Source: Henricia sp. BOLD:AAB3569
Taxonomy: Eukaryota > Echinodermata > Asteroidea > Spinulosida > Echinasteridae
Direction: 5' to 3'
DNA: 64,000 nt
NCBI GenBank assembly: GCA_037783545.1
Contig: JBBELK010001061.1
Coordinates: forward strand, 1-64,000
The notes beneath the pieces are model-generated. The model saw only the letters and a program-made list of their open reading frames with translations. It was not told the origin of the DNA and searched no databases. The translations under genes were made by a program, and so were the position numbers. Numbering within the stretch: the first letter of the stretch is position 1; each line of letters opens with the position of its first letter. Positions 1-62,946 of this stretch are shown in pieces.

Positions 1-3000
1 CACGCAAACCGTGGCTGTCTGTACACACCTCTTTGGGGTACTCCTGAGTTGTGCGCATGCTCAGTCATTCGGACTGTCGTTAACGCACCGCAGTTTGGCT
101 CGGCAATTTGGTCAAAGTGTGGTCCAAACGTCGGCAAATTTGGAGGTCGAAAAATGTTCCGACGAACTTCAAATTTTGCATGCCCTAAACTCTCTATATT
201 GCGCACTTGTCATAAAAAATTGACAGACTTTCGCCGGGAAATGGCAGAGAAATTTCAAAGTTTAGAAAAAACTGGGTTGAGGCTTCCTGACTGCTCTCAC
301 GCAAACCGTGGCTGTCTGTACACACCTCTTTGGGGTACTCCTGAGTTGTGCGCATGCTCAGTCATTCGGACTGTCGTTAACGCACCGCAGTTTGGCTCGG
401 CAATTTGGTCAAAGTGTGGTCCAAACGTCGGCAAATTTGGAGGTCGAAAAATGTTCCGACGAACTTCAAATTTTGCATGCCCTAAACTCTCTATATTGCG
501 CACTTGTCATAAAAAATTGACAGACTTTCGCCGGGAAATGGCAGAGAAATTTCAAAGTTTAGAAAAAACTGGGTTGAGGCTTCCTGACTGCTCTCACGCA
601 AACCGTGGCTGTCTGTACACACCTCTTTGGGGTACTCCTGAGTTGTGCGCATGCTCAGTCATTCGGACTGTCGTTAACGCACCGCAGTTTGGCTCGGCAA
701 TTTGGTCAAAGTGTGGTCCAAACGTCGGCAAATTTGGAGGTCGAAAAATGTTCCGACGAACTTCAAATTTTGCATGCCCTAAACTCTCTATATTGCGCAC
801 TTGTCATAAAAAATTGACAGACTTTCGCCGGGAAATGGCAGAGAAATTTCAAAGTTTAGAAAAAACTGGGTTGAGGCTTCCTGACTGCTCTCACGCAAAC
901 CGTGGCTGTCTGTACACACCTCTTTGGGGTACTCCTGAGTTGTGCGCATGCTCAGTCATTCGGACTGTCGTTAACGCACCGCAGTTTGGCTCGGCAATTT
1001 GGTCAAAGTGTGGTCCAAACGTCGGCAAATTTGGAGGTCGAAAAATGTTCCGACGAACTTCAAATTTTGCATGCCCTAAACTCTCTATATTGCGCACTTG
1101 TCATAAAAAATTGACAGACTTTCGCCGGGAAATGGCAGAGAAATTTCAAAGTTTAGAAAAAACTGGGTTGAGGCTTCCTGACTGCTCTCACGCAAACCGT
1201 GGCTGTCTGTACACACCTCTTTGGGGTACTCCTGAGTTGTGCGCATGCTCAGTCATTCGGACTGTCGTTAACGCACCGCAGTTTGGCTCGGCAATTTGGT
1301 CAAAGTGTGGTCCAAACGTCGGCAAATTTGGAGGTCGAAAAATGTTCCGACGAACTTCAAATTTTGCATGCCCTAAACTCTCTATATTGCGCACTTGTCA
1401 TAAAAAATTGACAGACTTTCGCCGGGAAATGGCAGAGAAATTTCAAAGTTTAGAAAAAACTGGGTTGAGGCTTCCTGACTGCTCTCACGCAAACCGTGGC
1501 TGTCTGTACACACCTCTTTGGGGTACTCCTGAGTTGTGCGCATGCTCAGTCATTCGGACTGTCGTTAACGCACCGCAGTTTGGCTCGGCAATTTGGTCAA
1601 AGTGTGGTCCAAACGTCGGCAAATTTGGAGGTCGAAAAATGTTCCGACGAACTTCAAATTTTGCATGCCCTAAACTCTCTATATTGCGCACTTGTCATAA
1701 AAAATTGACAGACTTTCGCCGGGAAATGGCAGAGAAATTTCAAAGTTTAGAAAAAACTGGGTTGAGGCTTCCTGACTGCTCTCACGCAAACCGTGGCTGT
1801 CTGTACACACCTCTTTGGGGTACTCCTGAGTTGTGCGCATGCTCAGTCATTCGGACTGTCGTTAACGCACCGCAGTTTGGCTCGGCAATTTGGTCAAAGT
1901 GTGGTCCAAACGTCGGCAAATTTGGAGGTCGAAAAATGTTCCGACGAACTTCAAATTTTGCATGCCCTAAACTCTCTATATTGCGCACTTGTCATAAAAA
2001 ATTGACAGACTTTCGCCGGGAAATGGCAGAGAAATTTCAAAGTTTAGAAAAAACTGGGTTGAGGCTTCCTGACTGCTCTCACGCAAACCGTGGCTGTCTG
2101 TACACACCTCTTTGGGGTACTCCTGAGTTGTGCGCATGCTCAGTCATTCGGACTGTCGTTAACGCACCGCAGTTTGGCTCGGCAATTTGGTCAAAGTGTG
2201 GTCCAAACGTCGGCAAATTTGGAGGTCGAAAAATGTTCCGACGAACTTCAAATTTTGCATGCCCTAAACTCTCTATATTGCGCACTTGTCATAAAAAATT
2301 GACAGACTTTCGCCGGGAAATGGCAGAGAAATTTCAAAGTTTAGAAAAAACTGGGTTGAGGCTTCCTGACTGCTCTCACGCAAACCGTGGCTGTCTGTAC
2401 ACACCTCTTTGGGGTACTCCTGAGTTGTGCGCATGCTCAGTCATTCGGACTGTCGTTAACGCACCGCAGTTTGGCTCGGCAATTTGGTCAAAGTGTGGTC
2501 CAAACGTCGGCAAATTTGGAGGTCGAAAAATGTTCCGACGAACTTCAAATTTTGCATGCCCTAAACTCTCTATATTGCGCACTTGTCATAAAAAATTGAC
2601 AGACTTTCGCCGGGAAATGGCAGAGAAATTTCAAAGTTTAGAAAAAACTGGGTTGAGGCTTCCTGACTGCTCTCACGCAAACCGTGGCTGTCTGTACACA
2701 CCTCTTTGGGGTACTCCTGAGTTGTGCGCATGCTCAGTCATTCGGACTGTCGTTAACGCACCGCAGTTTGGCTCGGCAATTTGGTCAAAGTGTGGTCCAA
2801 ACGTCGGCAAATTTGGAGGTCGAAAAATGTTCCGACGAACTTCAAATTTTGCATGCCCTAAACTCTCTATATTGCGCACTTGTCATAAAAAATTGACAGA
2901 CTTTCGCCGGGAAATGGCAGAGAAATTTCAAAGTTTAGAAAAAACTGGGTTGAGGCTTCCTGACTGCTCTCACGCAAACCGTGGCTGTCTGTACACACCT

Positions 3001-6000
3001 CTTTGGGGTACTCCTGAGTTGTGCGCATGCTCAGTCATTCGGACTGTCGTTAACGCACCGCAGTTTGGCTCGGCAATTTGGTCAAAGTGTGGTCCAAACG
3101 TCGGCAAATTTGGAGGTCGAAAAATGTTCCGACGAACTTCAAATTTTGCATGCCCTAAACTCTCTATATTGCGCACTTGTCATAAAAAATTGACAGACTT
3201 TCGCCGGGAAATGGCAGAGAAATTTCAAAGTTTAGAAAAAACTGGGTTGAGGCTTCCTGACTGCTCTCACGCAAACCGTGGCTGTCTGTACACACCTCTT
3301 TGGGGTACTCCTGAGTTGTGCGCATGCTCAGTCATTCGGACTGTCGTTAACGCACCGCAGTTTGGCTCGGCAATTTGGTCAAAGTGTGGTCCAAACGTCG
3401 GCAAATTTGGAGGTCGAAAAATGTTCCGACGAACTTCAAATTTTGCATGCCCTAAACTCTCTATATTGCGCACTTGTCATAAAAAATTGACAGACTTTCG
3501 CCGGGAAATGGCAGAGAAATTTCAAAGTTTAGAAAAAACTGGGTTGAGGCTTCCTGACTGCTCTCACGCAAACCGTGGCTGTCTGTACACACCTCTTTGG
3601 GGTACTCCTGAGTTGTGCGCATGCTCAGTCATTCGGACTGTCGTTAACGCACCGCAGTTTGGCTCGGCAATTTGGTCAAAGTGTGGTCCAAACGTCGGCA
3701 AATTTGGAGGTCGAAAAATGTTCCGACGAACTTCAAATTTTGCATGCCCTAAACTCTCTATATTGCGCACTTGTCATAAAAAATTGACAGACTTTCGCCG
3801 GGAAATGGCAGAGAAATTTCAAAGTTTAGAAAAAACTGGGTTGAGGCTTCCTGACTGCTCTCACGCAAACCGTGGCTGTCTGTACACACCTCTTTGGGGT
3901 ACTCCTGAGTTGTGCGCATGCTCAGTCATTCGGACTGTCGTTAACGCACCGCAGTTTGGCTCGGCAATTTGGTCAAAGTGTGGTCCAAACGTCGGCAAAT
4001 TTGGAGGTCGAAAAATGTTCCGACGAACTTCAAATTTTGCATGCCCTAAACTCTCTATATTGCGCACTTGTCATAAAAAATTGACAGACTTTCGCCGGGA
4101 AATGGCAGAGAAATTTCAAAGTTTAGAAAAAACTGGGTTGAGGCTTCCTGACTGCTCTCACGCAAACCGTGGCTGTCTGTACACACCTCTTTGGGGTACT
4201 CCTGAGTTGTGCGCATGCTCAGTCATTCGGACTGTCGTTAACGCACCGCAGTTTGGCTCGGCAATTTGGTCAAAGTGTGGTCCAAACGTCGGCAAATTTG
4301 GAGGTCGAAAAATGTTCCGACGAACTTCAAATTTTGCATGCCCTAAACTCTCTATATTGCGCACTTGTCATAAAAAATTGACAGACTTTCGCCGGGAAAT
4401 GGCAGAGAAATTTCAAAGTTTAGAAAAAACTGGGTTGAGGCTTCCTGACTGCTCTCACTGCAAACCGTGGCTGTCTGTACACACCTCTTTGGGGTACTCC
4501 TGAGTTGTGCGCATGCTCAGTCATTCGGACTGTCGTTAACGCACCGCAGTTTGGCTCGGCAATTTGGTCAAAGTGTGGTCCAAACGTCGGCAAATTTGGA
4601 GGTCGAAAAATGTTCCGACGAACTTCAAATTTTGCATGCCCTAAACTCTCTATATTGCGCACTTGTCATAACAAATTGACAGACTTTCGCCGGGAAATGG
4701 CAGAGAAATTTCAAAGTTTAGAAAAAACTGGGTTGAGGCTTCCTGACTGCTCTCACGCAAACCGTGGCTGTCTGTACACACCTCTTTGGGGTACTCCTGA
4801 GTTGTGCGCATGCTCAGTCATTCGGACTGTCGTTAACGCACCGCAGTTTGGCTCGGCAATTTGGTCAAAGTGTGGTCCAAACGTCGGCAAATTTGGAGGT
4901 CGAAAAATGTTCCGACGAACTTCAAATTTTGCATGCCCTAAACTCTCTATATTGCGCACTTGTCATAAAAAATTGACAGACTTTCGCCGGGAAATGGCAG
5001 AGAAATTTCAAAGTTTAGAAAAAACTGGGTTGAGGCTTCCTGACTGCTCTCACGCAAACCGTGGCTGTCTGTACACACCTCTTTGGGGTACTCCTGAGTT
5101 GTGCGCATGCTCAGTCATTCGGACTGTCGTTAACGCACCGCAGTTTGGCTCGGCAATTTGGTCAAAGTGTGGTCCAAACGTCGGCAAATTTGGAGGTCGA
5201 AAAATGTTCCGACGAACTTCAAATTTTGCATGCCCTAAACTCTCTATATTGCGCACTTGTCATAAAAAATTGACAGACTTTCGCCGGGAAATGGCAGAGA
5301 AATTTCAAAGTTTAGAAAAAACTGGGTTGAGGCTTCCTGACTGCTCTCACGCAAACCGTGGCTGTCTGTACACACCTCTTTGGGGTACTCCTGAGTTGTG
5401 CGCATGCTCAGTCATTCGGACTGTCGTTAACGCACCGCAGTTTGGCTCGGCAATTTGGTCAAAGTGTGGTCCAAACGTCGGCAAATTTGGAGGTCGAAAA
5501 ATGTTCCGACGAACTTCAAATTTTGCATGCCCTAAACTCTCTATATTGCGCACTTGTCATAAAAAATTGACAGACTTTCGCCGGGAAATGGCAGAGAAAT
5601 TTCAAAGTTTAGAAAAAACTGGGTTGAGGCTTCCTGACTGCTCTCACGCAAACCGTGGCTGTCTGTACACACCTCTTTGGGGTACTCCTGAGTTGTGCGC
5701 ATGCTCAGTCATTCGGACTGTCGTTAACGCACCGCAGTTTGGCTCGGCAATTTGGTCAAAGTGTGGTCCAAACGTCGGCAAATTTGGAGGTCGAAAAATG
5801 TTCCGACGAACTTCAAATTTTGCATGCCCTAAACTCTCTATATTGCGCACTTGTCATAAAAAATTGACAGACTTTCGCCGGGAAATGGCAGAGAAATTTC
5901 AAAGTTTAGAAAAAACTGGGTTGAGGCTTCCTGACTGCTCTCACGCAAACCGTGGCTGTCTGTACACACCTCTTTGGGGTACTCCTGAGTTGTGCGCATG

Positions 6001-9000
6001 CTCAGTCATTCGGACTGTCGTTAACGCACCGCAGTTTGGCTCGGCAATTTGGTCAAAGTGTGGTCCAAACGTCGGCAAATTTGGAGGTCGAAAAATGTTC
6101 CGACGAACTTCAAATTTTGCATGCCCTAAACTCTCTATATTGCGCACTTGTCATAAAAAATTGACAGACTTTCGCCGGGAAATGGCAGAGAAATTTCAAA
6201 GTTTAGAAAAAACTGGGTTGAGGCTTCCTGACTGCTCTCACGCAAACCGTGGCTGTCTGTACACACCTCTTTGGGGTACTCCTGAGTTGTGCGCATGCTC
6301 AGTCATTCGGACTGTCGTTAACGCACCGCAGTTTGGCTCGGCAATTTGGTCAAAGTGTGGTCCAAACGTCGGCAAATTTGGAGGTCGAAAAATGTTCCGA
6401 CGAACTTCAAATTTTGCATGCCCTAAACTCTCTATATTGCGCACTTGTCATAAAAAATTGACAGACTTTCGCCGGGAAATGGCAGAGAAATTTCAAAGTT
6501 TAGAAAAAACTGGGTTGAGGCTTCCTGACTGCTCTCACGCAAACCGTGGCTGTCTGTACACACCTCTTTGGGGTACTCCTGAGTTGTGCGCATGCTCAGT
6601 CATTCGGACTGTCGTTAACGCACCGCAGTTTGGCTCGGCAATTTGGTCAAAGTGTGGTCCAAACGTCGGCAAATTTGGAGGTCGAAAAATGTTCCGACGA
6701 ACTTCAAATTTTGCATGCCCTAAACTCTCTATATTGCGCACTTGTCATAAAAAATTGACAGACTTTCGCCGGGAAATGGCAGAGAAATTTCAAAGTTTAG
6801 AAAAAACTGGGTTGAGGCTTCCTGACTGCTCTCACGCAAACCGTGGCTGTCTGTACACACCTCTTTGGGGTACTCCTGAGTTGTGCGCATGCTCAGTCAT
6901 TCGGACTGTCGTTAACGCACCGCAGTTTGGCTCGGCAATTTGGTCAAAGTGTGGTCCAAACGTCGGCAAATTTGGAGGTCGAAAAATGTTCCGACGAACT
7001 TCAAATTTTGCATGCCCTAAACTCTCTATATTGCGCACTTGTCATAAAAAATTGACAGACTTTCGCCGGGAAATGGCAGAGAAATTTCAAAGTTTAGAAA
7101 AAAACTGGGTTGAGGCTTCCTGACTGCTCTCACGCAAACCGTGGCTGTCTGTACACACCTCTTTGGGGTACTCCTGAGTTGTGCGCATGCTCAGTCATTC
7201 GGACTGTCGTTAACGCACCGCAGTTTGGCTCGGCAATTTGGTCAAAGTGTGGTCCAAACGTCGGCAAATTTGGAGGTCGAAAAATGTTCCGACGAACTTC
7301 AAATTTTGCATGCCCTAAACTCTCTATATTGCGCACTTGTCATAAAAAATTGACAGACTTTCGCCGGGAAATGGCAGAGAAATTTCAAAGTTTAGAAAAA
7401 ACTGGGTTGAGGCTTCCTGACTGCTCTCACGCAAACCGTGGCTGTCTGTACACACCTCTTTGGGGTACTCCTGAGTTGTGCGCATGCTCAGTCATTCGGA
7501 CTGTCGTTAACGCACCGCAGTTTGGCTCGGCAATTTGGTCAAAGTGTGGTCCAAACGTCGGCAAATTTGGAGGTCGAAAAATGTTCCGACGAACTTCAAA
7601 TTTTGCATGCCCTAAACTCTCTATATTGCGCACTTGTCATAAAAAATTGACAGACTTTCGCCGGGAAATGGCAGAGAAATTTCAAAGTTTAGAAAAAACT
7701 GGGTTGAGGCTTCCTGACTGCTCTCACGCAAACCGTGGCTGTCTGTACACACCTCTTTGGGGTACTCCTGAGTTGTGCGCATGCTCAGTCATTCGGACTG
7801 TCGTTAACGCACCGCAGTTTGGCTCGGCAATTTGGTCAAAGTGTGGTCCAAACGTCGGCAAATTTGGAGGTCGAAAAATGTTCCGACGAACTTCAAATTT
7901 TGCATGCCCTAAACTCTCTATATTGCGCACTTGTCATAAAAAATTGACAGACTTTCGCCGGGAAATGGCAGAGAAATTTCAAAGTTTAGAAAAAACTGGG
8001 TTGAGGCTTCCTGACTGCTCTCACGCAAACCGTGGCTGTCTGTACACACCTCTTTGGGGTACTCCTGAGTTGTGCGCATGCTCAGTCATTCGGACTGTCG
8101 TTAACGCACCGCAGTTTGGCTCGGCAATTTGGTCAAAGTGTGGTCCAAACGTCGGCAAATTTGGAGGTCGAAAAATGTTCCGACGAACTTCAAATTTTGC
8201 ATGCCCTAAACTCTCTATATTGCGCACTTGTCATAAAAAATTGACAGACTTTCGCCGGGAAATGGCAGAGAAATTTCAAAGTTTAGAAAAAAACTGGGTT
8301 GAGGCTTCCTGACTGCTCTCACGCAAACCGTGGCTGTCTGTACACACCTCTTTGGGGTACTCCTGAGTTGTGCGCATGCTCAGTCATTCGGACTGTCGTT
8401 AACGCACCGCAGTTTGGCTCGGCAATTTGGTCAAAGTGTGGTCCAAACGTCTGCAAATTTGGAGGTCGAAAATGTTCCGACGAACTTCAAATTTTGCATG
8501 CCCTAAACTCTCTATATTGCGCACTTGTCATAAAAAATTGACACGACTTTCGCCGGGAAATGGCAGAGAAATTTCAAAGTTTAGAAAAAACTGGGTTGAG
8601 GCTTCCTGACTGCTCTCACGCAAACCGTGGCTGTCTGTACACACCTCTTTGGGGTACTCCTGAGTTGTGCGCATGCTCAGTCATTCGGACTGTCGTTAAC
8701 GCACCGCAGTTTGGCTCGGCAATTTGGTCAAAGTGTGGTCCAAACGTCGGCAAATTTGGAGGTCGAAAAATGTTCCGACGAACTTCAAATTTTGCATGCC
8801 CTAAACTCTCTATATTGCGCACTTGTCATAAAAAATTGACAGACTTTCGCCGGGAAATGGCAGAGAAATTTCAAAGTTTAGAAAAAAACTGGGTTGAGGC
8901 TTCCTGACTGCTCTCACGCAAACCGTGGCTGTCTGTACACACCTCTTTGGGGTACTCCTGAGTTGTGCGCATGCTCAGTCATTCGGACTGTCGTTAACGC

Positions 9001-12000
9001 ACCGCAGTTTGGCTCGGCAATTTGGTCAAAGTGTGGTCCAAACGTCGGCAAATTTGGAGGTCGAAAAATGTTCCGACGAACTTCAAATTTTGCATGCCCT
9101 AAACTCTCTATATTGCGCACTTGTCATAAAAAATTGACAGACTTTCGCCGGGAAATGGCAGAGAAATTTCAAAGTTTAGAAAAAAACTGGGTTGAGGCTT
9201 CCTGACTGCTCTCACGCAAACCGTGGCTGTCTGTACACACCTCTTTGGGGTACTCCTGAGTTGTGCGCATGCTCAGTCATTCGGACTGTCGTTAACGCAC
9301 CGCAGTTTGGCTCGGCAATTTGGTCAAAGTGTGGTCCAAACGTCGGCAAATTTGGAGGTCGAAAAATGTTCCGACGAACTTCAAATTTTGCATGCCCTAA
9401 ACTCTCTATATTGCGCACTTGTCATACAAAATTGACAGACTTTCGCCGGGAAATGGCAGAGAAATTTCAAAGTTTAGAAAAAACTGGGTTGAGGCTTCCT
9501 GACTGCTCTCACGCAAACCGTGGCTGTCTGTACACACCTCTTTGGGGTACTCCTGAGTTGTGCGCATGCTCAGTCATTCGGACTGTCGTTAACGCACCGC
9601 AGTTTGGCTCGGCAATTTGGTCAAAGTGTGGTCCAAACGTCGGCAAATTTGGAGGTCGAAAAATGTTCCGACGAACTTCAAATTTTGCATGCCCTAAACT
9701 CTCTATATTGCGCACTTGTCATAAAAAATTGACAGACTTTCGCCGGGAAATGGCAGAGAAATTTCAAAGTTTAGAAAAAACTGGGTTGAGGCTTCCTGAC
9801 TGCTCTCACGCAAACCGTGGCTGTCTGTACACACCTCTTTGGGGTACTCCTGAGTTGTGCGCATGCTCAGTCATTCGGACTGTCGTTAACGCACCGCAGT
9901 TTGGCTCGGCAATTTGGTCAAAGTGTGGTCCAAACGTCGGCAAATTTGGAGGTCGAAAAATGTTCCGACGAACTTCAAATTTTGCATGCCCTAAACTCTC
10001 TATATTGCGCACTTGTCATAAAAAATTGACAGACTTTCGCCGGGAAATGGCAGAGAAATTTCAAAGTTTAGAAAAAACTGGGTTGAGGCTTCCTGACTGC
10101 TCTCACGCAAACCGTGGCTGTCTGTACACACCTCTTTGGGGTACTCCTGAGTTGTGCGCATGCTCAGTCATTCGGACTGTCGTTAACGCACCGCAGTTTG
10201 GCTCGGCAATTTGGTCAAAGTGTGGTCCAAACGTCGGCAAATTTGGAGGTCGAAAAATGTTCCGACGAACTTCAAATTTTGCATGCCCTAAACTCTCTAT
10301 ATTGCGCACTTGTCATAAAAAATTGACAGACTTTCGCCGGGAAATGGCAGAGAAATTTCAAAGTTTAGAAAAAACTGGGTTGAGGCTTCCTGACTGCTCT
10401 CACGCAAACCGTGGCTGTCTGTACACACCTCTTTGGGGTACTCCTGAGTTGTGCGCATGCTCAGTCATTCGGACTGTCGTTAACGCACCGCAGTTTGGCT
10501 CGGCAATTTGGTCAAAGTGTGGTCCAAACGTCGGCAAATTTGGAGGTCGAAAAATGTTCCGACGAACTTCAAATTTTGCATGCCCTAAACTCTCTATATT
10601 GCGCACTTGTCATAAAAAATTGACAGACTTTCGCCGGGAAATGGCAGAGAAATTTCAAAGTTTAGAAAAACTGGGTTGAGGCTTCCTGACTGCTCTCACG
10701 CAAACCGTGGCTGTCTGTACACACCTCTTTGGGGTACTCCTGAGTTGTGCGCATGCTCAGTCATTCGGACTGTCGTTAACGCACCGCAGTTTGGCTCGGC
10801 AATTTGGTCAAAGTGTGGTCCAAACGTCGGCAAATTTGGAGGTCGAAAAATGTTCCGACGAACTTCAAATTTTGCATGCCCTAAACTCTCTATATTGCGC
10901 ACTTGTCATAAAAAATTGACAGACTTTCGCCGGGAAATGGCAGAGAAATTTCAAAGTTTAGAAAAAACTGGGTTGAGGCTTCCTGACTGCTCTCACGCAA
11001 ACCGTGGCTGTCTGTACACACCTCTTTGGGGTACTCCTGAGTTGTGCGCATGCTCAGTCATTCGGACTGTCGTTAACGCACCGCAGTTTGGCTCGGCAAT
11101 TTGGTCAAAGTGTGGTCCAAACGTCGGCAAATTTGGAGGTCGAAAAATGTTCCGACGAACTTCAAATTTTGCATGCCCTAAACTCTCTATATTGCGCACT
11201 TGTCATAAAAAATTGACAGACTTTCGCCGGGAAATGGCAGAGAAATTTCAAAGTTTAGAAAAAAACTGGGTTGAGGCTTCCTGACTGCTCTCACGCAAAC
11301 CGTGGCTGTCTGTACACACCTCTTTGGGGTACTCCTGAGTTGTGCGCATGCTCAGTCATTCGGACTGTCGTTAACGCACCGCAGTTTGGCTCGGCAATTT
11401 GGTCAAAGTGTGGTCCAAACGTCGGCAAATTTGGAGGTCGAAAAATGTTCCGACGAACTTCAAATTTTGCATGCCCTAAACTCTCTATATTGCGCACTTG
11501 TCATAAAAAATTGACAGACTTTCGCCGGGAAATGGCAGAGAAATTTCAAAGTTTAGAAAAAACTGGGTTGAGGCTTCCTGACTGCTCTCACGCAAACCGT
11601 GGCTGTCTGTACACACCTCTTTGGGGTACTCCTGAGTTGTGCGCATGCTCAGTCATTCGGACTGTCGTTAACGCACCGCAGTTTGGCTCGGCAATTTGGT
11701 CAAAGTGTGGTCCAAACGTCGGCAAATTTGGAGGTCGAAAAATGTTCCGACGAACTTCAAATTTTGCATGCCCTAAACTCTCTATATTGCGCACTTGTCA
11801 TAAAAAATTGACAGACTTTCGCCGGGAAATGGCAGAGAAATTTCAAAGTTTAGAAAAAACTGGGTTGAGGCTTCCTGACTGCTCTCACGCAAACCGTGGC
11901 TGTCTGTACACACCTCTTTGGGGTACTCCTGAGTTGTGCGCATGCTCAGTCATTCGGACTGTCGTTAACGCACCGCAGTTTGGCTCGGCAATTTGGTCAA

Positions 12001-51100: not shown

Positions 51101-51978
51101 GGCTGTCTGTACACACCTCTTTGGGGTACTCCTGAGTTGTGCGCATGCTCAGTCATTCGGACTGTCGTTAACGCACCGCAGTTTGGCTCGGCAATTTGGT
51201 CAAAGTGTGGTCCAAACGTCGGCAAATTTGGAGGTCGAAAAATGTTCCGACGAACTTCAAATTTTGCATGCCCTAAACTCTCTATATTGCGCACTTGTCA
51301 TAAAAAATTGACAGACTTTCGCCGGGAAATGGCAGAGAAATTTCAAAGTTTGAAAAAAACTGGGTTGAGGTTTCCTGACTGCTCTCACGCAAACCGTGGC
51401 TGTCTGTACACACCTCTTTGGGGTACTCCTGAGTTGTGCGCATGCTCAGTCATTCGGACTGTCGTTAACGCACCGCAGTTTGGCTCGGCAATTTGGTCAA
51501 AGTGTGGTCCAAACGTCGGCAAATTTGGAGGTCGAAAAATGTTCCGACGAACTTCAAATTTTGCATGCCCTAAACTCTCTATATTGCGCACTTGTCATAA
51601 AAAAATTGACAGACTTTCGCCGGGAAATGGCAAAGAAATTTCAAAGTTTAGAAAAAACTGGGTTGAGGCTTCCTGACTGCTCTCACGCAAACCGTGGCTG
51701 TCTGTACACACCTCTTTGGGGTACTCCTGAGTTGTGCGCATGCTCAGTCATTCGGACTGTCGTTAACGCACCGCAGTTTGGCTCGGCAATTTGGTCAAAG
51801 TGTGGTCCAAACGTCGGCAAATTTGGAGGTCGAAAAATGTTCCGACGAACTTCAAATTTTGCATGCCCTAAACTCTCTATATTGCGCACTTGTCATAAAA
51901 AATTGACAGACTTTCGCCGGAAATGGCAGAGAAATTTCAAAGTTTAGAAAAAACTGGGTTGAGGCTTCCTGACTGCTC
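45152..51978 (+). repeat. Divergent subfamily domain with short higher-order periods (23 units)
   Basis: Variants not seen further left define this stretch: GACAGGCTTTCGC with GGCAAAGAAA, GAGATATTTCAAAGTTTGAAA, GTCGATAACG, GTCGTCAACG, ATTGAGCACTTG with AAAAAAATGACAG, AATTTAGTC and the 1-bp deletion CGCCGGAAATGG. The unit carrying CGCCGGAAATGG starts at 46,043, 46,933, 48,417 and 49,307, at spacings of 890, 1,484 and 890 bp (3, 5 and 3 units, each less one base). It is followed at the first three positions by a unit with AATTTAGTC and ATTGAGCAC. Another CGCCGGAAATGG unit lies at 51,683. Confidence 0.9.
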
Positions 51979-52573
51979 TCACGCAAACCGTGGCTGTCTG
52001 TACACACCTCTTTGGGGTACTCCTGAGTTGTGCGCATGCTCAGTTATTCGGACTGTCGTCAACGCACCGCAGTTTGGCTCGGCAATTTGGTCAAAGTGTG
52101 GTCCAAACGTCGGCAAATTTGGAGGTCGAAAAATGTTCCGACGAACTTCAAATTTTGCATGCCCTAAACTCTCTATATTGCGCACTTGTCATAAAAAAAT
52201 TGACAGACTTTCGCAGGGAAATGGCAGAGAAATTTCAAAGTTTAGAAAAAACTGGGTTGAGGCTTCCTGACTGCTCTCACGCAAACCGTGGCTGTCTGTA
52301 CACACCTCTTTGGGGTACTCCTGAGTTGTGCGCATGCTTTGTCATTCGGACTGTCGTTAACGCACCGCAGTTTGGCTCGGCAATTTGGTCAAAGTGTGGT
52401 CCAAACGTCGGCAAATTTGGAGGTCGAAAAATATTCCGACGAACTTCAAATTTTGCATGCCCTAAACTCTCTATATTGCGCACTTGTCATAAAAAATTGA
52501 CAGACTTTCGCCGGGAAATGGCAGAGAATTTTCAAAGTTTAGAAAAAACTGGGTTGAGGCTTCCTGACTGCTC

Positions 52574-54654
52574 TCACGCAAACCGTGGCTGTCTGTACAC
52601 AGCTCTTTGGGGTACTCCTGAGTTGTGCGCATGCTCAGTCATTCGGACTGTCGTTAACGCACCGCAGTTTGGCTCGGCAATTTGGTCAAAGTGTGGTCCA
52701 AACGTCGGCAAATTTGGAGGTCGAACAATTTTCCGACGAACTTCAAATTTTGCATGCCCTAAACTCTCTATATTGCGCACTTGTCATAAAAAATTGACAG
52801 ACTTTCGCCGGGAAATGGCAGAGAAATTTTTAAAGTTTGAAAAAAACTGGGTTGAGGCTTCCTGACTGCTCTCACGCAAACCGTGGCTGTCTGTACACAC
52901 CTCTTTGGGGTACTCCTGAGTTGTGCGCATGCTCAGTCATTCGGACTGTCGTTAACGCACCGCAGTTTGGCTCGGCAATTTGGTCAAAGTGTGGTCCAAA
53001 CGTCGGCAAATTTGGAGGTCGAAAAATGTTCCGACGAACTTCAAATTTTGCATGCCCTAAACTCTCTATATTGCGCACTTGTCATAAAAAATTGACAGAC
53101 TTTCGCCGGGAAATGGCAAAGAAATTTCAAAGTTTAGAAAAAACTGGGTTGAGGCTTCCTGACTGCTCTCACGCAAACCGTGGCTGTCTGTACACACCTC
53201 TTTGGGGTACTCCTGAGTTGTGCGCATGCTCAGTCATTCGGACTGTCGTTACCGCACCGCAGTTTGGCTCGGCAATTTGGTCAAAGTGTAGTCCAAACGT
53301 CGGCAAATTTGGAGGTCGAAAAATGTTCCGACGAACTTCAAATTTTGCATGCCCTAAACTCTCTATATTGCGCACTTGTCATACAAAATTGACAGACTTT
53401 CGCCGGGAAATGGCAGAGAAATTTCAAAGTTTGAAAAAAACTGGGTTGAGGCTTCCTGACTGCTCTCACGCAAACCGTGGCTGTCTGTACACACCTCTTT
53501 GGGGTACTCCTGAGTTGTGCGCATGCTCAGTCATTCGGACTGTCGTTAACGCACCGCAGTTTGGCTCGGCAATTTGGTCAAAGTGTGGTCCAAACGTCGG
53601 CAAATTTGGAGGTCGAAAAATGTTCCGACGAACTTCAAATTTTGCATTCCCTAAACTCTCTATATTGCGCACTTGTCATAAAAAATTGACAGACTTTCGC
53701 CGGGAAATGGCAGAGAAATTTCAAAGTTTAGAAAAAACTGGGTTGAGGCTTCCTGACTGCTCTCACGCAAACCGTGGCTGTCTGTACACACCTCTTTGGG
53801 GTACTCCTGAGTTGTGCGCATGCTCAGTCATTCGGACTGTCGTTAACGCACCGCAGTTTGGCTCGGCAATTTGGTCAAAGTGTGGTCCAAACGTCGGCAA
53901 ATTTGGAGGTCGAAAAATGTTCCGACGAACTTCAAATTTTGCATGCCCTAAACTCTCTATATTGCGCACTTGTCATAAAAAATTGACAGACTTTCGCCAT
54001 GAAATGGCAGAGAAATTTCAAAGTTTAGAAAAAACTGGGTTAAGGCTTCCTGACTGCTCTCACGCAAACCGTGGCTGTCTGTACACACCTCTTTGGGTAC
54101 TCCTGAGTTGTGCGCATGCTCAGTCATTCGGACTGTCGTTAACGCACCGCAGTTTGGCTCGGCAATTTGGTCAAAGTGTGGTCCAAACGTCGGCAAATTT
54201 GGAGGTCGAAAAATGTTCCGACGAACTTCAAATTTTGCATGCCCTAAACTCTCTATATTGCGCACTTGTCATAAAAAATTGACAGACTTTCGCCGGGAAA
54301 TGGCAGAGAAATTTCAAAGTTTAGAAAAAAACTGGGTTGAGGCTTCCTGACTGCCTTCACGCAAACCGTGGCTGTCTGTACACACCTCTTTGGGGTACTC
54401 CTGAGTTGTGCGCATGCTCAGTCATTCGGACTGTCGTTAACGCACCGCAGTTTGGCTCGGCAATTTGGTCAAAGTGTGGTCCAAACGTCGGCAAATTTGG
54501 AGGTCGAAAAATGTTCCGACGAACTTCAAATTTTGCATGCCCTAAACTCTCTATATTGCGCACTTGTCATAAAAAATTGACAGACTTTCGCCGGGAAATG
54601 GCAGAGAAATTTTCAAAGTTTAGAAAAAACTGGGTTGAGGCTTCCTGACTGCTC
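52574..54654 (+). repeat. 19-unit-spaced segmental duplication, copy 1
   Basis: This run carries, in order, GAACAATTTTCCG, TTTTTAAAGTTTGAAA, GGCAAAGAAA, GTTACCGC with CATACAAAATTG, GCATTCCC, CTTTGGGTACTCC (one G lost) and CTGCCTTCACG. The same order recurs at 58,219 onward with a constant +5,645 bp offset. Shared rare variants in the same order are strong evidence of block duplication. Copy-specific differences include CACAGCTC (52,600), GTGTAGTCC (53,288) and CGCCATGAAATGG (53,997). Confidence 0.93.
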
Positions 54655-57600
54655 TCACGCAAACCGTGGCTGTCTGTACACACCTCTTTGGGGTACTCCT
54701 GAGTTGTGCGCATGCTCAGTCATTCGGACTGTCGTTAACGCACCGCAGTTTGGCTCGGCAATTTGGTCAAAGTGTGGTCCAAACGTCGGCAAATTTGGAG
54801 GTCGAAAAATGTTCCGACGAACTTCAAATTTTGCATGCCCTAAACTCTCTATATTGCGCACTTGTCATAAAAAATTGACAGACTTTCGCCGGGAAATGGC
54901 AGAGAAATTTCAAAGTTTAGAAAAAACTGGGTTGAGGCTTCCTGACTGCTCTCACGCAAACCGTGGCTGTCTGTACACACCTCTTTGGAGTACTCCTGAG
55001 TTGTGCGCATGCTCAGTCATTCGGACTGTCGTTAACGCACCGCAGTTTGGCTCGGCAATTTGGTCAAAGTGTGGTCCAAACGTCGGCAAATTTGGAGGTC
55101 GAAAAATGTTCCGACGAACTTCAAATTGTGCATTCCCTAAACTCTCTATATTGCGCACTTGTCATAAAAAATTGACAGACTTTCGCCGGGAAATGGCAGA
55201 GAAATTTCAAAGTTTAGAAAAAACTGGGTTGAGGCTTCCTGACTGCTCTCACGCAAACCGTGGCTGTCTGTACACACCTCTTTGGGGTACTCCTGAGTTG
55301 TGCGCATGCTCAGTCATTCGGACTGTCGTTAACGCACCGCAGTTTGGCTCGGCAATTTGGTCAAAGTGTGGTCCAAACGTCGGCAAATTTGGAGGTCGAA
55401 AAATGTTCCGACGAACTTCAAATTTTGCATGCCCTAAACTCTCTATATTGCGCACTTGTCATAACAAATTGACAGACTTTCGCCGGGAAATGGCAGAGAA
55501 ATTTCAAAGTTTAGAAAAAACTGGGTTGAGGCTTCCTGACTGCTCTCACGCAAACCGTGGCTGTCTGTACACACCTCTTTGGGGTACTCCTGAGTTGTGC
55601 GCATGCTCAGTCATTCGGACTGTCGTTAACGCACCGCAGTTTGGCTCGGCAATTTGGTCAAAGTGTGGTCCAAACGTCGGCAAATTTGGAGGTCGAAAAA
55701 TGTTCCGACGAACTTCAAATTTTGCATGCCCTAAACTCTCTATATTGCGCACTTGTCATAAAAAATTGACAGACTTTCGCCGGGAAATGGCAGAGAAATT
55801 TCAAAGTTTAGAAAAAACTGGGTTGAGGCTTCCTGACTGCTCTCACGCAAACCGTGGCTGTCTGTACACACCTCTTTGGGGTACTCCTGAGTTGTGCGCA
55901 TGCTCAGTCATTCGGACTGTCGTTAACGCACCGCAGTTTGGCTCGGCAATTTGGTCAAAGTGTGGTCCAAACGTCGGCAAATTTGGAGGTCGAAAAATGT
56001 TCAGACGAACTTCAAATTTTGCATGCCCTAAACTCTCTATATTGCGCACTTGTCATAAAAAATTGACAGACTTTCGCCGGGAAATGGCAGAGAAATTTCA
56101 AAGTTTAGAAAAAACTGGGTTGAGGCTTCCTGACTGCTCTCACGCAAACCGTGGCTGTCTGTACACACCTCTTTGGGGTACTCCTGAGTTGTGCGCATGC
56201 TCAGTCATTCGGACTGTCGTTAACGCACCGCAGTTTGGCTCGGCAATTTGGTCAAAGTGTGGTCCAAACGTCGGCAAATTTGGAGGTCGAAAAATGTTCC
56301 GACGAACTTCAAATTTTGCATGCCCTAAACTCTCTATATTGCGCACTTGTCATAAAAAATTGACAGACTTTCGCCGGGAAATGGCAGAGAAATTTCAAAG
56401 TTTAGAAAAAACTGGGTTAAGGCTTCCTGACCGCTCTCACGCAAACCGTGGCTGTCTGTACACACCTCTTTGGGTACTCCTGAGTTGTGCGCATGCTCAG
56501 TCATTCGGACTGTCGTTAACGCACCGCAGTTTGGCTCGGCAATTTGGTCAAAGTGTGGTCCAAACGTCGGCAAATTTGGAGGTCGAAAAATGTTCCGACG
56601 AACTTCAAATTTTGCATGCCCTAAACTCTCTATATTGCGCACTTGTCATAAAAAATTGACAGACTTTCGCCGGGAAATGGCAGAGAAATTTCAAAGTTTA
56701 GAAAAAAACTGGGTTGAGGCTTCCTGACTGCCTTCACGCAAACCGTGGCTGTCTGTACACACCTCTTTGGGGTACTCCTGAGTTGTGCGCATGCTCAGTC
56801 ATTCGGACTGTCGTTAACGCACCGCAGTTTGGCTCGGCAATTTGGTCAAAGTGTGGTCCAAACGTCGGCAAATTTGGAGGTCGAAAAATGTTCCGACGAA
56901 CTTCAAATTTTGCATGCCCTAAACTCTCTATATTGCGCACTTGTCATAAAAAATTGACAGACTTTCGCCGGGAAATGGCAGAGAAATTTCAAAGTTTAGA
57001 AAAAACTGGGTTGAGGCTTCCTGACTGCTCTCACGCAAACCGTGGCTGTCTGTACACACCTCTTTGGGGTACTCCTGAGTTGTGCGCATGCTCAGTCATT
57101 CGGACTGTCGTTAACGCACCGCAGTTTGGCTCGGCAATTTGGTCAAAGTGTGGTCCAAACGTCGGCAAATTTGGAGGTCGAAAAATGTTCCGACGAACTT
57201 CAAATTTTGCATGCCCTAAACTCTCTATATTGCGCACTTGTCATAAAAAATTGACAGACTTTCGCCGGGAAATGGCAGAGAAATTTCAAAGTTTAGAAAA
57301 AACTGGGTTGAGGCTTCCTGACTGCTCTCACGCAAACCGTGGCTGTCTGTACACACCTCTTTGGAGTACTCCTGAGTTGTGCGCATGCTCAGTCATTCGG
57401 ACTGTCGTTAACGCACCGCAGTTTGGCTCGGCAATTTGGTCAAAGTGTGGTCCAAACGTCGGCAAATTTGGAGGTCGAAAAATGTTCCGACGAACTTCAA
57501 ATTGTGCATTCCCTAAACTCTCTATATTGCGCACTTGTCATAAAAAAATGACAGACTTTCGCCGGGAAATGGCAGAGAAATTTCAAAGTTTAGAAAAAAC

Positions 57601-58218
57601 TGGGTTGAGGCTTCCTGACTGCTCTCACGCAAACCGTGGCTGTCTGTACACACCTCTTTGGGGTACTCCTGAGTTGTGCGCATGCTCAGTCATTCGGACT
57701 GTCGTTAACGCACCGCAGTTTGGCTCGGCAATTTGGTCAAAGTGTGGTCCAAACGTCGGCAAATTTGGAGGTCGAAAAATGTTCCGACGAACTTCAAATT
57801 TTGCATGCCCTAAACTCTCTATATTGCGCACTTGTCATAAAAAATTGACAGACTTTCGCCGGGAAATGGCAGAGAAATTTCAAAGTTTAGAAAAAACTGG
57901 GTTGAGGCTTCCTGACTGCTCTCACGCAAACCGTGGCTGTCTGTACACACCTCTTTGGGGTACTCCTGAGTTGTGCGCATGCTCAGTCATTCGGACTGTC
58001 GTTAACGCACCGCAGTTTGGCTCGGCAATTTGGTCAAAGTGTGGTCCAAACGTCGGCAAATTTGGAGGTCGAAAAATGTTCCGACGAACTTCAAATTTTG
58101 CATGCCCTAAACTCTCTATATTGCGCACTTGTCATAAAAAATTGACAGACTTTCGCCGGGAAATGGCAGAGAAATTTCAAAGTTTAGAAAAAACTGGGTT
58201 GAGGCTTCCTGACTGCTC

Positions 58219-60279
58219 TCACGCAAACCGTGGCTGTCTGTACACACCTCTTTGGGGTACTCCTGAGTTGTGCGCATGCTCAGTCATTCGGACTGTCGTT
58301 AACGCACCGCAGTTTGGCTCGGCAATTTGGTCAAAGTGTGGTCCAAACGTCGGCAAATTTGGAGGTCGAACAATTTTCCGACGAACTTCAAATTTTGCAT
58401 GCCCTAAACTCTCTATATTGCGCATTTGTCATAAAAAATTGACAGACTTTCGCCGGGAAATGGCAGAGAAATTTTTAAAGTTTGAAAAAAACTGGGTTGA
58501 GGCTTCCTGACTGCTCTCACGCAAACCGTGGCTGTCTGTACACACCTCTTTGGGGTACTCCTGAGTTGTGCGCATGCTCAGTCATTCGGACTGTCGTTAA
58601 CGCACCGCAGTTTGGCTCGGCAATTTGGTCAAAGTGTGGTCCAAACGTCGGCAAATTTGGAGGTCGAAAAATGTTCCGACGAACTTCAAATTTTGCATGC
58701 CCTAAACTCTCTATATTGCGCACTTGTCATAAAAAATTGACAGACTTTCGCCGGGAAATGGCAAAGAAATTTCAAAGTTTAGAAAAAACTGGGTTGAGGC
58801 TTCCTGACTGCTCTCACGCAAACCGTGGCTGTCTGTACACACCTCTTTGGGGTACTCCTGAGTTGTGCGCATGCTCAGTCATTCGGACTGTCGTTACCGC
58901 ACCGCAGTTTGGCTCGGCAATTTGGTCAAAGTGTGGTCCAAACGTCGGCAAATTTGGAGGTCGAAAAATGTTCCGACGAACTTCAAATTTTGCATGCCCT
59001 AAACTCTCTATATTGCGCACTTGTCATACAAAATTGACAGACTTTCGCCGGGAAATGGCAGAGAAATTTCAAAGTTTGAAAAAAACTGGGTTGAGGCTTC
59101 CTGACTGCTCTCACGCAAACCGTGGCTGTCTGTACACACCTCTTTGGGGTACTCCTGAGTTGTGCGCATGCTCAGTCATTCGGACTGTCGTTAACGCACC
59201 GCAGTTTGGCTCGGCAATTTGGTCAAAGTGTGGTCCAAACGTCGGCAAATTTGGAGGTCGAAAAATGTTCCGACGAACTTCAAATTTTGCATTCCCTAAA
59301 CTCTCTATATTGCGCACTTGTCATAAAAAATTGACAGACTTTCGCCGGGAAATGGCAGAGAAATTTCAAAGTTTAGAAAAAACTGGGTTGAGGCTTCCTG
59401 ACTGCTCTCACGCAAACCGTGGCTGTCTGTACACACCTCTTTGGGGTACTCCTGAGTTGTGCGCATGCTCAGTCATTCGGACTGTCGTTAACGCACCGCA
59501 GTTTGGCTCGGCAATTTGGTCAAAGTGTGGTCCAAACGTCGGCAAATTTGGAGGTCGAAAAATGTTCCGACGAACTTCAAATTTTGCATGCCCTAAACTC
59601 TCTATATTGCGCACTTGTCATAAAAAATTGACAGACTTTCGCCGGGAAATGGCAGAGAAATTTCAAAGTTTAGAAAAAACTGGGTTAAGGCTTCCTGACT
59701 GCTCTCATGCAAACCGTGGCTGTCTGTACACACCTCTTTGGGTACTCCTGAGTTGTGCGCATGCTCAGTCATTCGGACTGTCGTTAACGCACCGCAGTTT
59801 GGCTCGGCAATTTGGTCAAAGTGTGGTCCAAACGTCGGCAAATTTGGAGGTCGAAAAATGTTCCGACGAACTTCAAATTTTGCATGCCCTAAACTCTCTA
59901 TATTGCGCACTTGTCATAAAAAATTGACAGACTTTCGCCGGGAAATGGCAGAGAAATGTCAAAGTTTAGAAAAAAACTGGGTTGAGGCTTCCTGACTGCC
60001 TTCACGCAAACCGTGGCTGTCTGTACACACCTCTTTGGGGTACTCCTGAGTTGTGCGCATGCTCAGTCATTCGGACTGTCGTTAACGCACCGCAGTTTGG
60101 CTCGGCAATTTGGTCAAAGTGTGGTCCAAACGTCGGCAAATTTGGAGGTCGAAAAATGTTGCATGCCCTAAACTCTCTATATTGCGCACTTGTCATAAAA
60201 AATTGACAGACTTTCGCCGGGAAATGGCAGAGAAATTTCAAAGTTTAGAAAAAACTGGGTTGAGGCTTCCTGACTGCTC
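58219..60279 (+). repeat. 19-unit-spaced segmental duplication, copy 2
   Basis: This is the counterpart of 52,574-54,654 at +5,645 bp, with the same ordered series of rare variants. Its own changes include GCGCATTTGTC (58,423), CTCTCATGC (59,705), AGAAATGTC (59,957) and a 19-bp deletion near 60,158 that shortens the last unit to 278 bp. Matching markers continue past this segment into the CTTTGGAGTAC unit at 60,577. Confidence 0.93.
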
Positions 60280-61467
60280 TCACGCAAACCGTGGCTGTCT
60301 GTACACACCTCTTTGGGGTACTCCTGAGTTGTGCGCATGCTCAGTCATTCGGACTGTCGTTAACGCACCGCAGTTTGGCTCGGCAATTTGGTCAAAGTGT
60401 GGTCCAAACGTCGGCAAATTTGGAGGTCGAAAAATGTTCCGACGAACTTCAAATTTTGCATGCCCTAAACTCTCTATATTGCGCACTTGTCATAAAAAAT
60501 TGACAGACTTTCGCCGGGAAATGGCAGAGAAATTTCAAAGTTTAGAAAAAACTGGGTTGAGGCTTCCTGACTGCTCTCACGCAAACCGTGGCTGTCTGTA
60601 CACACCTCTTTGGAGTACTCCTGAGTTGTGCGCATGCTCAGTCATTCGGACTGTCGTTAACGCACCGCAGTTTGGCTCGGCAATTTGGTCAAAGTGTGGT
60701 CCAAACGTCGGCAAATTTGGAGGTCGAAAAATGTTCCGACGAACTTCAAATTTTGCATGCCCTAAACTCTCTATATTGCGCACTTGTCATAAAAAATTGA
60801 CAGACTTTCGCCGGGAAATGGCAGAGAAATTTCAAAGTTTAGAAAAAACTGGGTTGAGGCTTCCTGACTGCTCTCACGCAAACCGTGGCTGTCTGTACAC
60901 ACCTCTTTGGGGTACTCCTGAGTTGTGCGCATGCTCAGTCATTCGGACTGTCGTTAACGCACCGCAGTTTGGCTCGGCAATTTGGTCAAAGTGTGGTCCA
61001 AACGTCGGCAAATTTGGAGGTCGAAAAATGTTCCGACGAACTTCAAATTTTGCATGCCCTAAACTCTCTATATTGCGCACTTGTCATAAAAAATTGACAG
61101 ACTTTCGCCGGGAAATGGCAGAGAAATTTCAAAGTTTAGAAAAAACTGGGTTGAGGCTTCCTGACTGCTCTCACGCAAACCGTGGCTGTCTGTACACACC
61201 TCTTTGGGGTACTCCTGAGTTGTGCGCATGCTCAGTCATTCGGACTGTCGTTAACGCACCGCAGTTTGGCTCGGCAATTTGGTCAAAGTGTGGTCCAAAC
61301 GTCGGCAAATTTGGAGGTCGAAAAATGTTCCGACGAACTTCAAATTTTGCATTCCCTAAACTCTCTATATTGCGCACTTGTCATAAAAAATTGACAGACT
61401 TTCGCCGGGAAATGGCAGAGAAATTTCAAAGTTTAGAAAAAACTGGGTTGAGGCTTCCTGACTGCTC

Positions 61468-61562
61468 TCACGCAAACCGTGGCTGTCTGTACACACCTCT
61501 TTGGGGTACTCCTGAGTTGTGCGCATGCTCAGTCATTCGTACTGTCGTTGACGCACCCCAGT
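61468..61562 (+). repeat. Terminal partial monomer abutting the LINE
   Basis: The last copy starts normally and follows the consensus for about 95 bp. It then shows three substitutions close together, at 61,540 (G to T), 61,550 (A to G) and 61,558 (G to C). Homology ends after CAGT at 61,562. The remaining two thirds of the unit is absent and is replaced by a 10-nt unique stretch (61,563-61,572) and the ORF1 start codon. The extra divergence in the last 25 bp fits a boundary that does not exchange with the rest of the array. Confidence 0.9.
61520..61534 (+). promoter_or_regulatory. Candidate promoter core in the terminal monomer (NRF1-like plus initiator-like)
   Basis: TGCGCATGCTCA at 61,520-61,531 matches the NRF1 consensus YGCGCAYGCGCR at 11 of 12 positions. 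It overlaps TCAGTC at 61,529-61,534, which fits the arthropod-type initiator TCAKTY. The same pair occurs in nearly every unit of the array. This copy ends 42 bp upstream of the ORF1 start codon, so initiation at the A of TCAGTC would leave a leader of about 42 nt. NRF1-family proteins occur across animals. Promoter function is inferred from motif matches and position only. Confidence 0.35.
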
Positions 61563-61572
61563 GCCGTGAACC

Positions 61573-62910
61573 ATGAACGACGCTAATTCAACGCTGAAGA
61601 GGGAGCTGACTGTGACTTTGGACCTGCCCAGCAAGTTGAACTACCAGGATGTCTGCCGAACCATTGCGTCTACCCTTCCCGACGGCGAGATCAAGTGCCT
61701 CCAACAACTCGGAGACCTGCGATGGCTTGTGACGCCGAGGACCGCCGCCGGGAGGAAGAAGATCCTGGAAACTCAACTTGCCGCGGGGAATGTCAGGTTT
61801 AACGCCAGCCCGGTGCAGCGACCAGTAGACTACGTTACCGTTAGTTACGCACCCTACGAAATGGAGGATCGGCCTATCATCACACTTCTTGGACAGTACG
61901 GTACGGTGTTGGGAGTACGACGGGGACACTGGGTATTGCATCCAACGTGGGAAAACGGCATGCGGCATATCCGCATGCATGTCGACAAGGCCATCCCGTC
62001 GTACGTGTGGGTCGGGGGTTACCAATTAAAGGTACGTTACAACGGCCAAGTAGAGACCTGCCGGCGGTGTGGAGCGCCCGGGCATAAGGCGGCTTTTTGT
62101 GTCCAGATTCGCTGCTATAACTGCGGTGAAGCTGGGCACCGCAGCAACATTTGCCCGAAGCCGCCTCGACACCAACAGACCTGGGCGCAGAGAGTCGGCA
62201 ATAACATCCAGCATAGAGACAATGTAAGCATTCATTCAGACACCGACTCCGATGATACCGCCGACACCCCGACCCCCACCACAACCCCAACACCGGCAGC
62301 CCGCACCGTGCCTGGCCCGGGACCGCAACGCGCTGGACCGAGCAATGCTGCGCAACCAAAACCCGCAGGAACCAGCGCGGAACGTACCCCGGGACCACAG
62401 AACGCCGGTCCTCCATCAGCCGCTGCACCGGGACAAAAATCCGCGCCCCGTCCAGTTCCACGCAAGAACACTCCTGTGAGAAAACCAAACATGGGACGAG
62501 GCTCGGCTCTGCCTGGCCGGACAGCTCCCTCTTCACCACCCGGCAAGACCGCACCCAAGGCCCCACCACCAACCAAGCCTGCACCGCCCCCGCCATTGGC
62601 ACCCGCCACGACTCCTGCTCCGGCAAAAGGACCGCGTCCGCCCAGGAAAGGAATAAACAAGGCAGACGCAACGCGTTCCTGGGCGGAACGGTCTATGTTT
62701 GAAGTACTTTTGGACGAAATGGACTCAATTATAACTTCGGGGCCTCTTGTCATCAACGAGACCCCGTTGTCGGAGCGGGAGTCCACGGACTCGGACAAGG
62801 ACTCAGTCGTCTCAATGATTTCAAGCAAGCGGGGGCGGTCGTCGTCTGACGAACAGCAGGGTGGTGTGTGGGAAACCAAAAAGAACTGCCGTAAGGCCAA
62901 GAAGAAATGA
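61573..62910 (+). CDS. LINE ORF1: gag-like RNA-binding protein with two CCHC zinc knuckles
   Basis: This is a 445-residue protein, probably the nucleic-acid-binding chaperone that packages LINE RNA in the cytoplasm. Residues about 10-158 form a folded region of alternating strands and helices, possibly RRM-like, similar in layout to Tx1-type ORF1 proteins. Two zinc knuckles of the form CX2CX4HX4C follow: C163, C166, H171, C176 and C181, C184, H189, C194. Residues about 225-360 are low-complexity, rich in Pro, Ala, Thr and Gly, and likely disordered. A short acidic and serine-rich part (about 375-415) precedes a basic tail containing KRGRSSS and ending in KAKKK. The ATG at 61,573 is chosen because it is the first in frame, has A at -3, and lies 10 nt after the repeat ends. 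The frame is uninterrupted. The coding sequence looks clearly more GC-rich than ORF2. Confidence 0.92.
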   Translation: MNDANSTLKRELTVTLDLPSKLNYQDVCRTIASTLPDGEIKCLQQLGDLRWLVTPRTAAGRKKILETQLAAGNVRFNASPVQRPVDYVTVSYAPYEMEDRPIITLLGQYGTVLGVRRGHWVLHPTWENGMRHIRMHVDKAIPSYVWVGGYQLKVRYNGQVETCRRCGAPGHKAAFCVQIRCYNCGEAGHRSNICPKPPRHQQTWAQRVGNNIQHRDNVSIHSDTDSDDTADTPTPTTTPTPAARTVPGPGPQRAGPSNAAQPKPAGTSAERTPGPQNAGPPSAAAPGQKSAPRPVPRKNTPVRKPNMGRGSALPGRTAPSSPPGKTAPKAPPPTKPAPPPPLAPATTPAPAKGPRPPRKGINKADATRSWAERSMFEVLLDEMDSIITSGPLVINETPLSERESTDSDKDSVVSMISSKRGRSSSDEQQGGVWETKKNCRKAKKK

Positions 62911-62946
62911 GAATTGGTTTGGGGTTTTTAACAAATCCTATAAATA
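62911..62946 (+). other. ORF1-ORF2 intercistronic spacer
   Basis: Thirty-six nucleotides separate the ORF1 stop (TGA, 62,908-62,910) from the ORF2 start. Both ORFs are in the same frame, but the spacer holds two more in-frame stops (TAA at 62,929 and 62,941), so simple readthrough or a frameshift would not make a fusion. ORF2 is therefore probably translated by reinitiation or internal initiation, as known for other bicistronic LINEs. The spacer is AT-rich and ends in TATAAATA directly before the ATG. Confidence 0.85.

Follow-up and report, generated by a model that had tools for sequence, protein, structure and literature searches.

A probable target-specific L1/Tx1-like LINE in its 297-bp satellite target in a Henricia genome

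Keno, Mutsu, and Dewa are long interspersed nuclear elements (LINEs) that all belong to the Tx1 clade, and Tx1 elements have a first open reading frame (ORF1) with zinc knuckles. Mouse L1 carries tandem 5' monomers directly before ORF1, and ancestral R1 elements make target duplications. As far as the consulted excerpts of the cited reports go, Keno inserts in U2 genes, Mutsu in 5S genes, and Dewa in a tRNA-Leu spacer (PMC3706591, PMC4640811), while YURE, a target-preferring LINE, has occasional insertions in U2-derived satellite repeats of sea squirts (PMC4640811). The excerpts likewise report that in R2, which sits in 28S genes, uniform 5' junctions accompany RNA that is cut within the 28S sequence, up to 36 nt upstream; in some R2 elements the RNA keeps 28 to 29 nt of upstream target, which is thought to anneal to the target and in which changes are heritable (PMC3774820). 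R1 of the melanogaster group yields transcripts that include 28S sequence from upstream, together with a precise deletion of the target (PMC2718515, in excerpt). Celine, a centromeric LINE of poplar, shows enrichment in CENH3 chromatin, and common short motifs are the only sequence preference that the excerpt names for it (PMC11288735). Here, we analyzed 64,000 bp of the sea star Henricia sp. BOLD:AAB3569 (the window; bases 1 to 64000 of the 98470-bp contig JBBELK010001061.1, C1061 below), in which a long 297-bp satellite array stands before ORF1 of a LINE that we call family A. We consider it very probable that the window holds a dead copy of a target-specific L1/Tx1-like LINE in its satellite target, a reading that we hold jointly with the nicking, annealing, and satellite-promoter steps proposed below.

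The window LINE and its satellite flanks

The window contains one tandem array with a period of 297 bp (positions 1 to 61562; 207.3 copies), with 207 full units on the + strand, 167 of them exactly 297 bp long and the others 278 to 299 bp (Table 1). The first-pass annotation had described about 207 same-orientation units that run straight into ORF1. The number and the orientation were right; however, the last unit stops at unit position 94 and departs from the array consensus at positions 72, 82, and 90, and 10 non-unit bases, GCCGTGAACC, lie between it and the ORF1 ATG. These differences are common to copies of the element but not to the window array. Nor does the array only precede the LINE: the LINE ends at contig position 66389, and the array resumes at 66390, 2.4 kb past the window end, with GGCAATTTGG at unit position 102, and continues to at least 94000, the last base read. 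The 207 upstream units fall into 101 distinct variants (52 units being identical to each other) and the 90 downstream units read into 66, with 4 variants in common. Both flanks of the window LINE are one satellite interrupted by the LINE. Outside the leader, no similarity between unit and LINE was found at E up to 1.

The LINE itself has ORF1 zinc knuckles (PF00098, E 1.6e-07, two stretches) and an endonuclease and reverse transcriptase of L1 type (Pfam Exo_endo_phos and RVT_1), with LINE-1 ORF2p as the best matches among solved structures (best E 2.8e-82, versus 8.6e-21 for the best R2). By this domain content, family A would be Tx1-like within the L1 group. The window copy is dead: its ORF2 is broken, staying open for 477 codons compared to the 1106 amino acids of the copy on contig C2026, and it lacks two stretches present in that copy. 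Other copies have intact frames, since nine endonuclease matches show a 1107-codon open frame with no stop.

We read the flanks of further copies in the host assembly (740.7 Mb, 2104 contigs). An ORF1 DNA search gave 73 candidates, from whose best 40 we read 30 loci for the 5' flank, and a search with the 3' end gave 118, from whose best 40 we read 30 loci for the 3' flank. Satellite extends to within 10 to 17 bases of the ORF1 ATG in all 30 copies and from the junction onward at all 30 3' ends, 29 of which begin at unit position 102 to 103 (by eye); in the remaining one, L069 on C342, the 3' flank begins five bases earlier, at a second GGGA. Family A is inserted in satellite orientation at unit position 101/102, the cut falling between ...CAGTTTGGNNC and GGNAWTTTGGTCAAAG.... 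The first bases past the 3' junction vary as satellite subfamilies do (CAATTTGG, GATTTTGG, AAATTGG, and AATTTGC), and they mostly match the local upstream unit at the 18 loci for which we compared the two flanks. Divergence between units within the host arrays reaches 12.5%. At one locus (L064, C48), the array ends 509 bases past the LINE and other internally repetitive sequence (..AAATTCAAGGAATATCATCTAAGGGTCCTAAG..) begins.

To find where the element starts, we aligned the last partial unit to the upstream units of the same locus at the 30 loci, taking as informative those cells in which array and element differ. Over unit positions 1 to 71, the last unit follows the array of its locus in 63 of 72 cells and the element consensus in 8, while 1 cell fits neither. 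From position 72 onward, 72 of 95 cells follow the element, the 23 exceptions falling at position 72 (8), position 85 (1), and position 95 (14, where there are two leader types). Over positions 1 to 71, the last unit shows a mean of 0.63 differences from its own array and 3.75 from the arrays of other loci; over positions 72 to 94, the corresponding means are 2.0 and 2.05, compared to 0.74 from the last units of other loci. Because the last unit switches there from local array to element, we conclude that the LINE begins at about unit position 72 with its own inherited copy of the target. This element-borne copy of 23 to 30 bp comes from upstream of the cut and opens the 5' untranslated region (UTR), which in family A amounts to about 33 to 44 nt before ORF1. 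Two leaders occur: type 1 (16 of 30 copies, the window copy included) has the target copy 72 to 94 followed by GCCGTGAACC, and type 2 (14 of 30) has a target copy to about position 101, then TTGTGCCGTGAACC by our reading, then the ATG. Type 1 is 11 nt shorter than type 2.

The first-pass annotation had weighed two origins for this arrangement, an L1-style promoter monomer grown to satellite scale and a LINE with Tx1-like target specificity inserted in a pre-existing satellite. In favor of the 297-bp unit being the 5' promoter monomer of the LINE, as in mouse L1, units abut the ORF1 leader in 30 of 30 copies read, and the last 23 to 30 bp before the leader are element-borne and unit-like. However, the same array lies past the 3' end in 30 of 30 cases read, unit positions 1 to 71 belong to the locus, the distances between flank units and between elements are uncorrelated, and this satellite also houses two families that have different 5' UTRs and only about 52% endonuclease identity (see below). 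We therefore regard a monomer origin as highly improbable. The insertion origin is supported by satellite on both flanks and a constant site. The array before ORF1 looks like a landing site rather than the element's own promoter grown large, because the family inserts at one exact unit spot and two related families and a short interspersed element (SINE)-like element use nearly the same spot. The first-pass annotation had named the same array on the 3' side, together with a target-site duplication, as a finding that would tell against the monomer; the array is there, but family A has no duplication and joins instead at its element-borne target copy. A duplication is present in the single copy read of each of the related families B and C.

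Table 1. Features of the window
Feature	Positions	Strand	Basis
297-bp satellite array, target: 207 full units and positions 1-71 of the last unit	1..61539	+	Period, unit alignment, local-array identity to position 71
LINE 5' end: element-borne target copy, unit positions 72-94 (to ~101 in type 2); inherited differences at 72, 82, 90	61540..61562	+	Last-unit comparison across loci
Remaining 5' UTR, GCCGTGAACC; window copy of type 1	61563..61572	+	Leader comparison of 30 copies
ORF1, 445 aa, CCHC zinc knuckles	61573..62910	+	ATG at 61573
ORF2 start, L1-type endonuclease; reverse transcriptase beyond window	62947..64000	+	Pfam matches, open frames

Related families, array exchange, and assembly

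An endonuclease protein search (117 matches; 116 of 605 candidates scored) revealed, besides family A, two large groups at 51 to 54% endonuclease identity, families B and C, of which we read one copy each at both ends (positions by eye). The family B copy (C1155) has its 3' flank from unit position 97 and its 5' flank to 111, with a 15-bp target duplication; in the family C copy (C601) the 3' flank starts at 104 and the 5' flank runs to 114, with an 11-bp target duplication. A leader motif, CGGACGTGTTTTTC, is common to these two copies and missing from the family A leader. A 3'-junction pattern for B matched 55 places, 54 of which are B copies (38 exact), the remaining one, on C342, being a family A copy that we did not count for B; the pattern for C matched 32 places (22 exact), and reversed control patterns for the B and C junctions gave 0 matches. 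Mismatches are confined to the satellite half in 15 of 16 inexact B places and 9 of 10 inexact C places, as local subfamilies would give. Copies of B and C lie on C1155, C601, C101, C330, C388, C192, and others, with seven B junctions within C1155:28007-101430.

A SINE-like element also occupies the family A site, about 290 to 1030 bases past the LINE end at L056 (C897), and, judged by its visible part, at the end of locus L070 (C101). Its tail is 90% identical to family A over 41 bases (the last 36 of the LINE plus 5 of satellite), its head is common to a frequent SINE for 35 to 39 bp, and its internal repeats recur about every 113 bp. Insertions in general are not limited to the phase of family A, since four SINEs with an (ACA)n tail were found at different unit positions of these arrays (L030, L065, L027, and L015, by eye; the heads of the last two were not in view).

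A constant junction could also reflect descent rather than targeting, if a single ancient insertion had been multiplied with the array by unequal exchange. The copies on C1061 and C1728 are consistent with this: they are 99.7% identical, measure 4812 and 4815 bp from the ATG to the 3' A-run compared to about 4945 in C2026, and share their two nearest upstream units without a difference; moreover, the ORF1 search placed two or more family A copies on each of several contigs. However, when C1061 and C1728 are compared in register, none of upstream units 3 to 54 and none of the 29 downstream units agree. Across loci, the median distance is 0.62% between elements and 7.5% between neighboring flank units, and the two kinds of distance are uncorrelated (Mantel r = -0.03; P(>=) = 0.62; 29 loci, leaving out L011, in which the first 2.1 kb differs by about 19% from the rest; when it is included, for 30 loci, r = -0.16 and P(>=) = 0.95). 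In 140 of 406 locus pairs, elements less than 0.6% apart stand beside units more than 6% apart. Further arguing against exchange, the B and C copies read carry target duplications, and a 5'-truncated copy with only about the last 1.49 kb of the element (L073) has the usual 3' junction together with a 5' junction near unit position 32, a structure expected of target-primed reverse transcription. Exchange may account for single copy pairs, but for the whole family it is contradicted by the missing correlation between element and flank, and we judge multiplication of one ancient insertion to be unlikely. Family A insertions are the product of retrotransposition, not of array exchange.

Long near-identical arrays such as this one, with 52 of 207 units identical, are hard to assemble, and the unit number and the A-run length variants may be unreliable. 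Collapsed or misjoined repeats could in principle create both an array and a constant junction. Nevertheless, the junctions are found again and again across many contigs, each side having its local variants, and other repeats within these arrays occupy different phases; an assembly artifact is thus hardly credible as the source of the arrangement.

The 5' junction and the satellite as promoter

In the mechanism that we propose, the ORF2 protein (ORF2p) would nick the bottom strand at unit position 101/102 and reverse-transcribe the element RNA from that nick. The target copy at the end of the complementary DNA would anneal to the upstream target strand and start the second strand, and this annealing would give a uniform 5' junction without target duplication. 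With less confidence, we suggest that the upstream satellite unit would provide the promoter and that the RNA would start near unit position 72, given that just about 33 to 44 nt of the element's own sequence precede ORF1. For the same reason, it is plausible that the array could supply serial promoters, as the first-pass annotation had also entertained. Unit positions 51 to 64 and 229 to 241 read GTGCGCATGCTCAG and TTTCGCCGGGAAA, candidate motif sites for the supposed promoter, which we take to resemble an NRF-1 site and an E2F site, respectively.

The same insertion history could instead have its 5' boundary at 71/72 set by the nick in the second strand, some 30 bp upstream of the nick in the first, rather than by the RNA start, with the element using an internal promoter of its own. 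A leader of 33 to 44 nt leaves little room for such a promoter, though short internal promoters exist in some LINEs. A boundary set by a nick and one set by the RNA start would look the same in the sequence, and melanogaster-group R1 has been described in this way, with upstream top-strand cleavage, RNA carrying upstream target, and a precise target deletion (PMC2718515, in excerpt). We consider a nick-set boundary a serious possibility, though one falling somewhat short of even odds.

Ribozymes were also sought at the junction. Three weak matches at E up to 10 (L021, L078, and L079), all far below family cutoffs, include no ribozyme like that of hepatitis delta virus (HDV), although Rfam may miss a divergent one. 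A candidate 7-bp helix of an HDV-like ribozyme at the 5' end was considered and rejected, because it begins three bases past position 72 and folds are no better than for shuffled sequence.

Several points weigh against our reading of the window as a dead family A copy in its satellite target. Exclusive use of the satellite by family A was judged at either end from 30 of the 40 copies that ranked best in the search, and L073 is the sole 5'-truncated copy among the 30 3' ends. The nine cells at positions 1 to 71 in which the last unit departs from its array come from 6 loci (L034, where the last unit belongs to a different subfamily from its array, accounts for 3) and indicate that some carry-over or exchange reaches beyond position 72. 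Local array consensuses were built from few units each (2 to 5 in these six loci). The junction patterns for B and C see only junctions within the satellite, because they contain satellite letters. With regard to the promoter step, no known RNA or ribozyme was found at E up to 1 in window positions 60300 to 64000, and folding of the 5' end does not exceed that of shuffled sequence (z-scores of 0.04 and -0.74). Finally, a diverged relative of family A on C356 (76% endonuclease identity; 3' part 78% identical in DNA) ends in nonsatellite sequence, so the tie to the satellite is not universal in the wider group. At C356:153497-157899 (L080 and L081) and three more places on that contig, this relative ends in ..AATAAAACATTTTATAAAAA followed by unrelated sequence; it is presumably one copy interrupted by other sequence and perhaps represents a lineage without the satellite target.

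Exact blocks within the window array recur at lags such as 2970, 3564, and 4158 bp, and the commonest unit accounts for 32 of the first 45 units compared to 20 of the other 162 (window positions 1 to 13400 versus 13400 to 61500). These block lags and identical early units suggest recent block expansion of the array away from the LINE. The 297-bp unit is open in one of six frames. A coding function was rejected, with 80 amino-acid-changing, 24 silent, and 5 stop-creating variants compared to 76.7, 26.0, and 6.3 expected; given no excess of silent changes, the long open frames of the array are no sign of coding. As to the identity of the satellite, the Rfam search of window positions 60300 to 64000 returned no known structured RNA at E up to 1. 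More tentatively, and with more doubt than confidence, we raise the possibility that at least three LINE families (about 52% endonuclease identity) and a SINE-like hitchhiker share a landing zone in an old, conserved noncoding satellite habitat. The upstream unit would be their promoter, the LINEs would be transcribed only by landing in phase, and the upkeep of the satellite would come partly from this traffic.

Comparison with known target-specific LINEs

Like mouse L1, the window LINE has tandem units before ORF1; unlike there, the units flank the LINE at both ends, are a property of the locus, and are older than the insertions. An array followed by a LINE should accordingly not be read as a LINE promoter turned satellite without checking the other flank. 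YURE, as portrayed in the excerpt, is likewise a LINE found in a satellite, but its satellite derives from the U2 gene and it groups with Utopia, which has a restriction-like endonuclease. Celine is similar in that it is concentrated in one compartment, whereas the excerpt on it names no fixed site in a satellite unit.

Among described mechanisms, those of R2 and melanogaster-group R1 come nearest to the one proposed here. With R1 and R2, family A has in common a short upstream target copy that goes with uniform 5' junctions. As in R1 lineages, there are families without (A) and with (the B and C copies) target duplication, here in an L1-type lineage. R2 differs in its type of endonuclease and in its HDV-like ribozyme, none having been found in family A by the searches above, R1 belongs to another clade, and the family A target is a satellite. 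The Henricia families thus offer natural replicates of how endonuclease specificity persists while the target evolves, of how the 5' junction forms (target copy in A versus duplications in the B and C copies, the same contrast as in R1), and of whether satellite transcription drives retrotransposons.

A close likeness is also to Keno, Mutsu, and Dewa, with which family A shares an apurinic-type endonuclease, an L1-type reverse transcriptase, a zinc-knuckle ORF1, and an exact site in a multicopy sequence. Among the papers listed by searches of the open-license literature on target-specific LINEs, satellites, and 5' monomers, none, judged by title or the start of the abstract, describes LINEs at an exact site of a satellite other than one with an RNA-gene origin. 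Tx1-group LINEs in RNA genes, YURE in a U2-derived satellite, and a LINE enriched in poplar centromeres are already known. In contrast to Keno, Mutsu, and Dewa, the target of family A is a 297-bp satellite without a recognized RNA family, and its landing zone is common to three families and a SINE-like element; what appears to be new here is that several related LINE families target a complex satellite of this kind.

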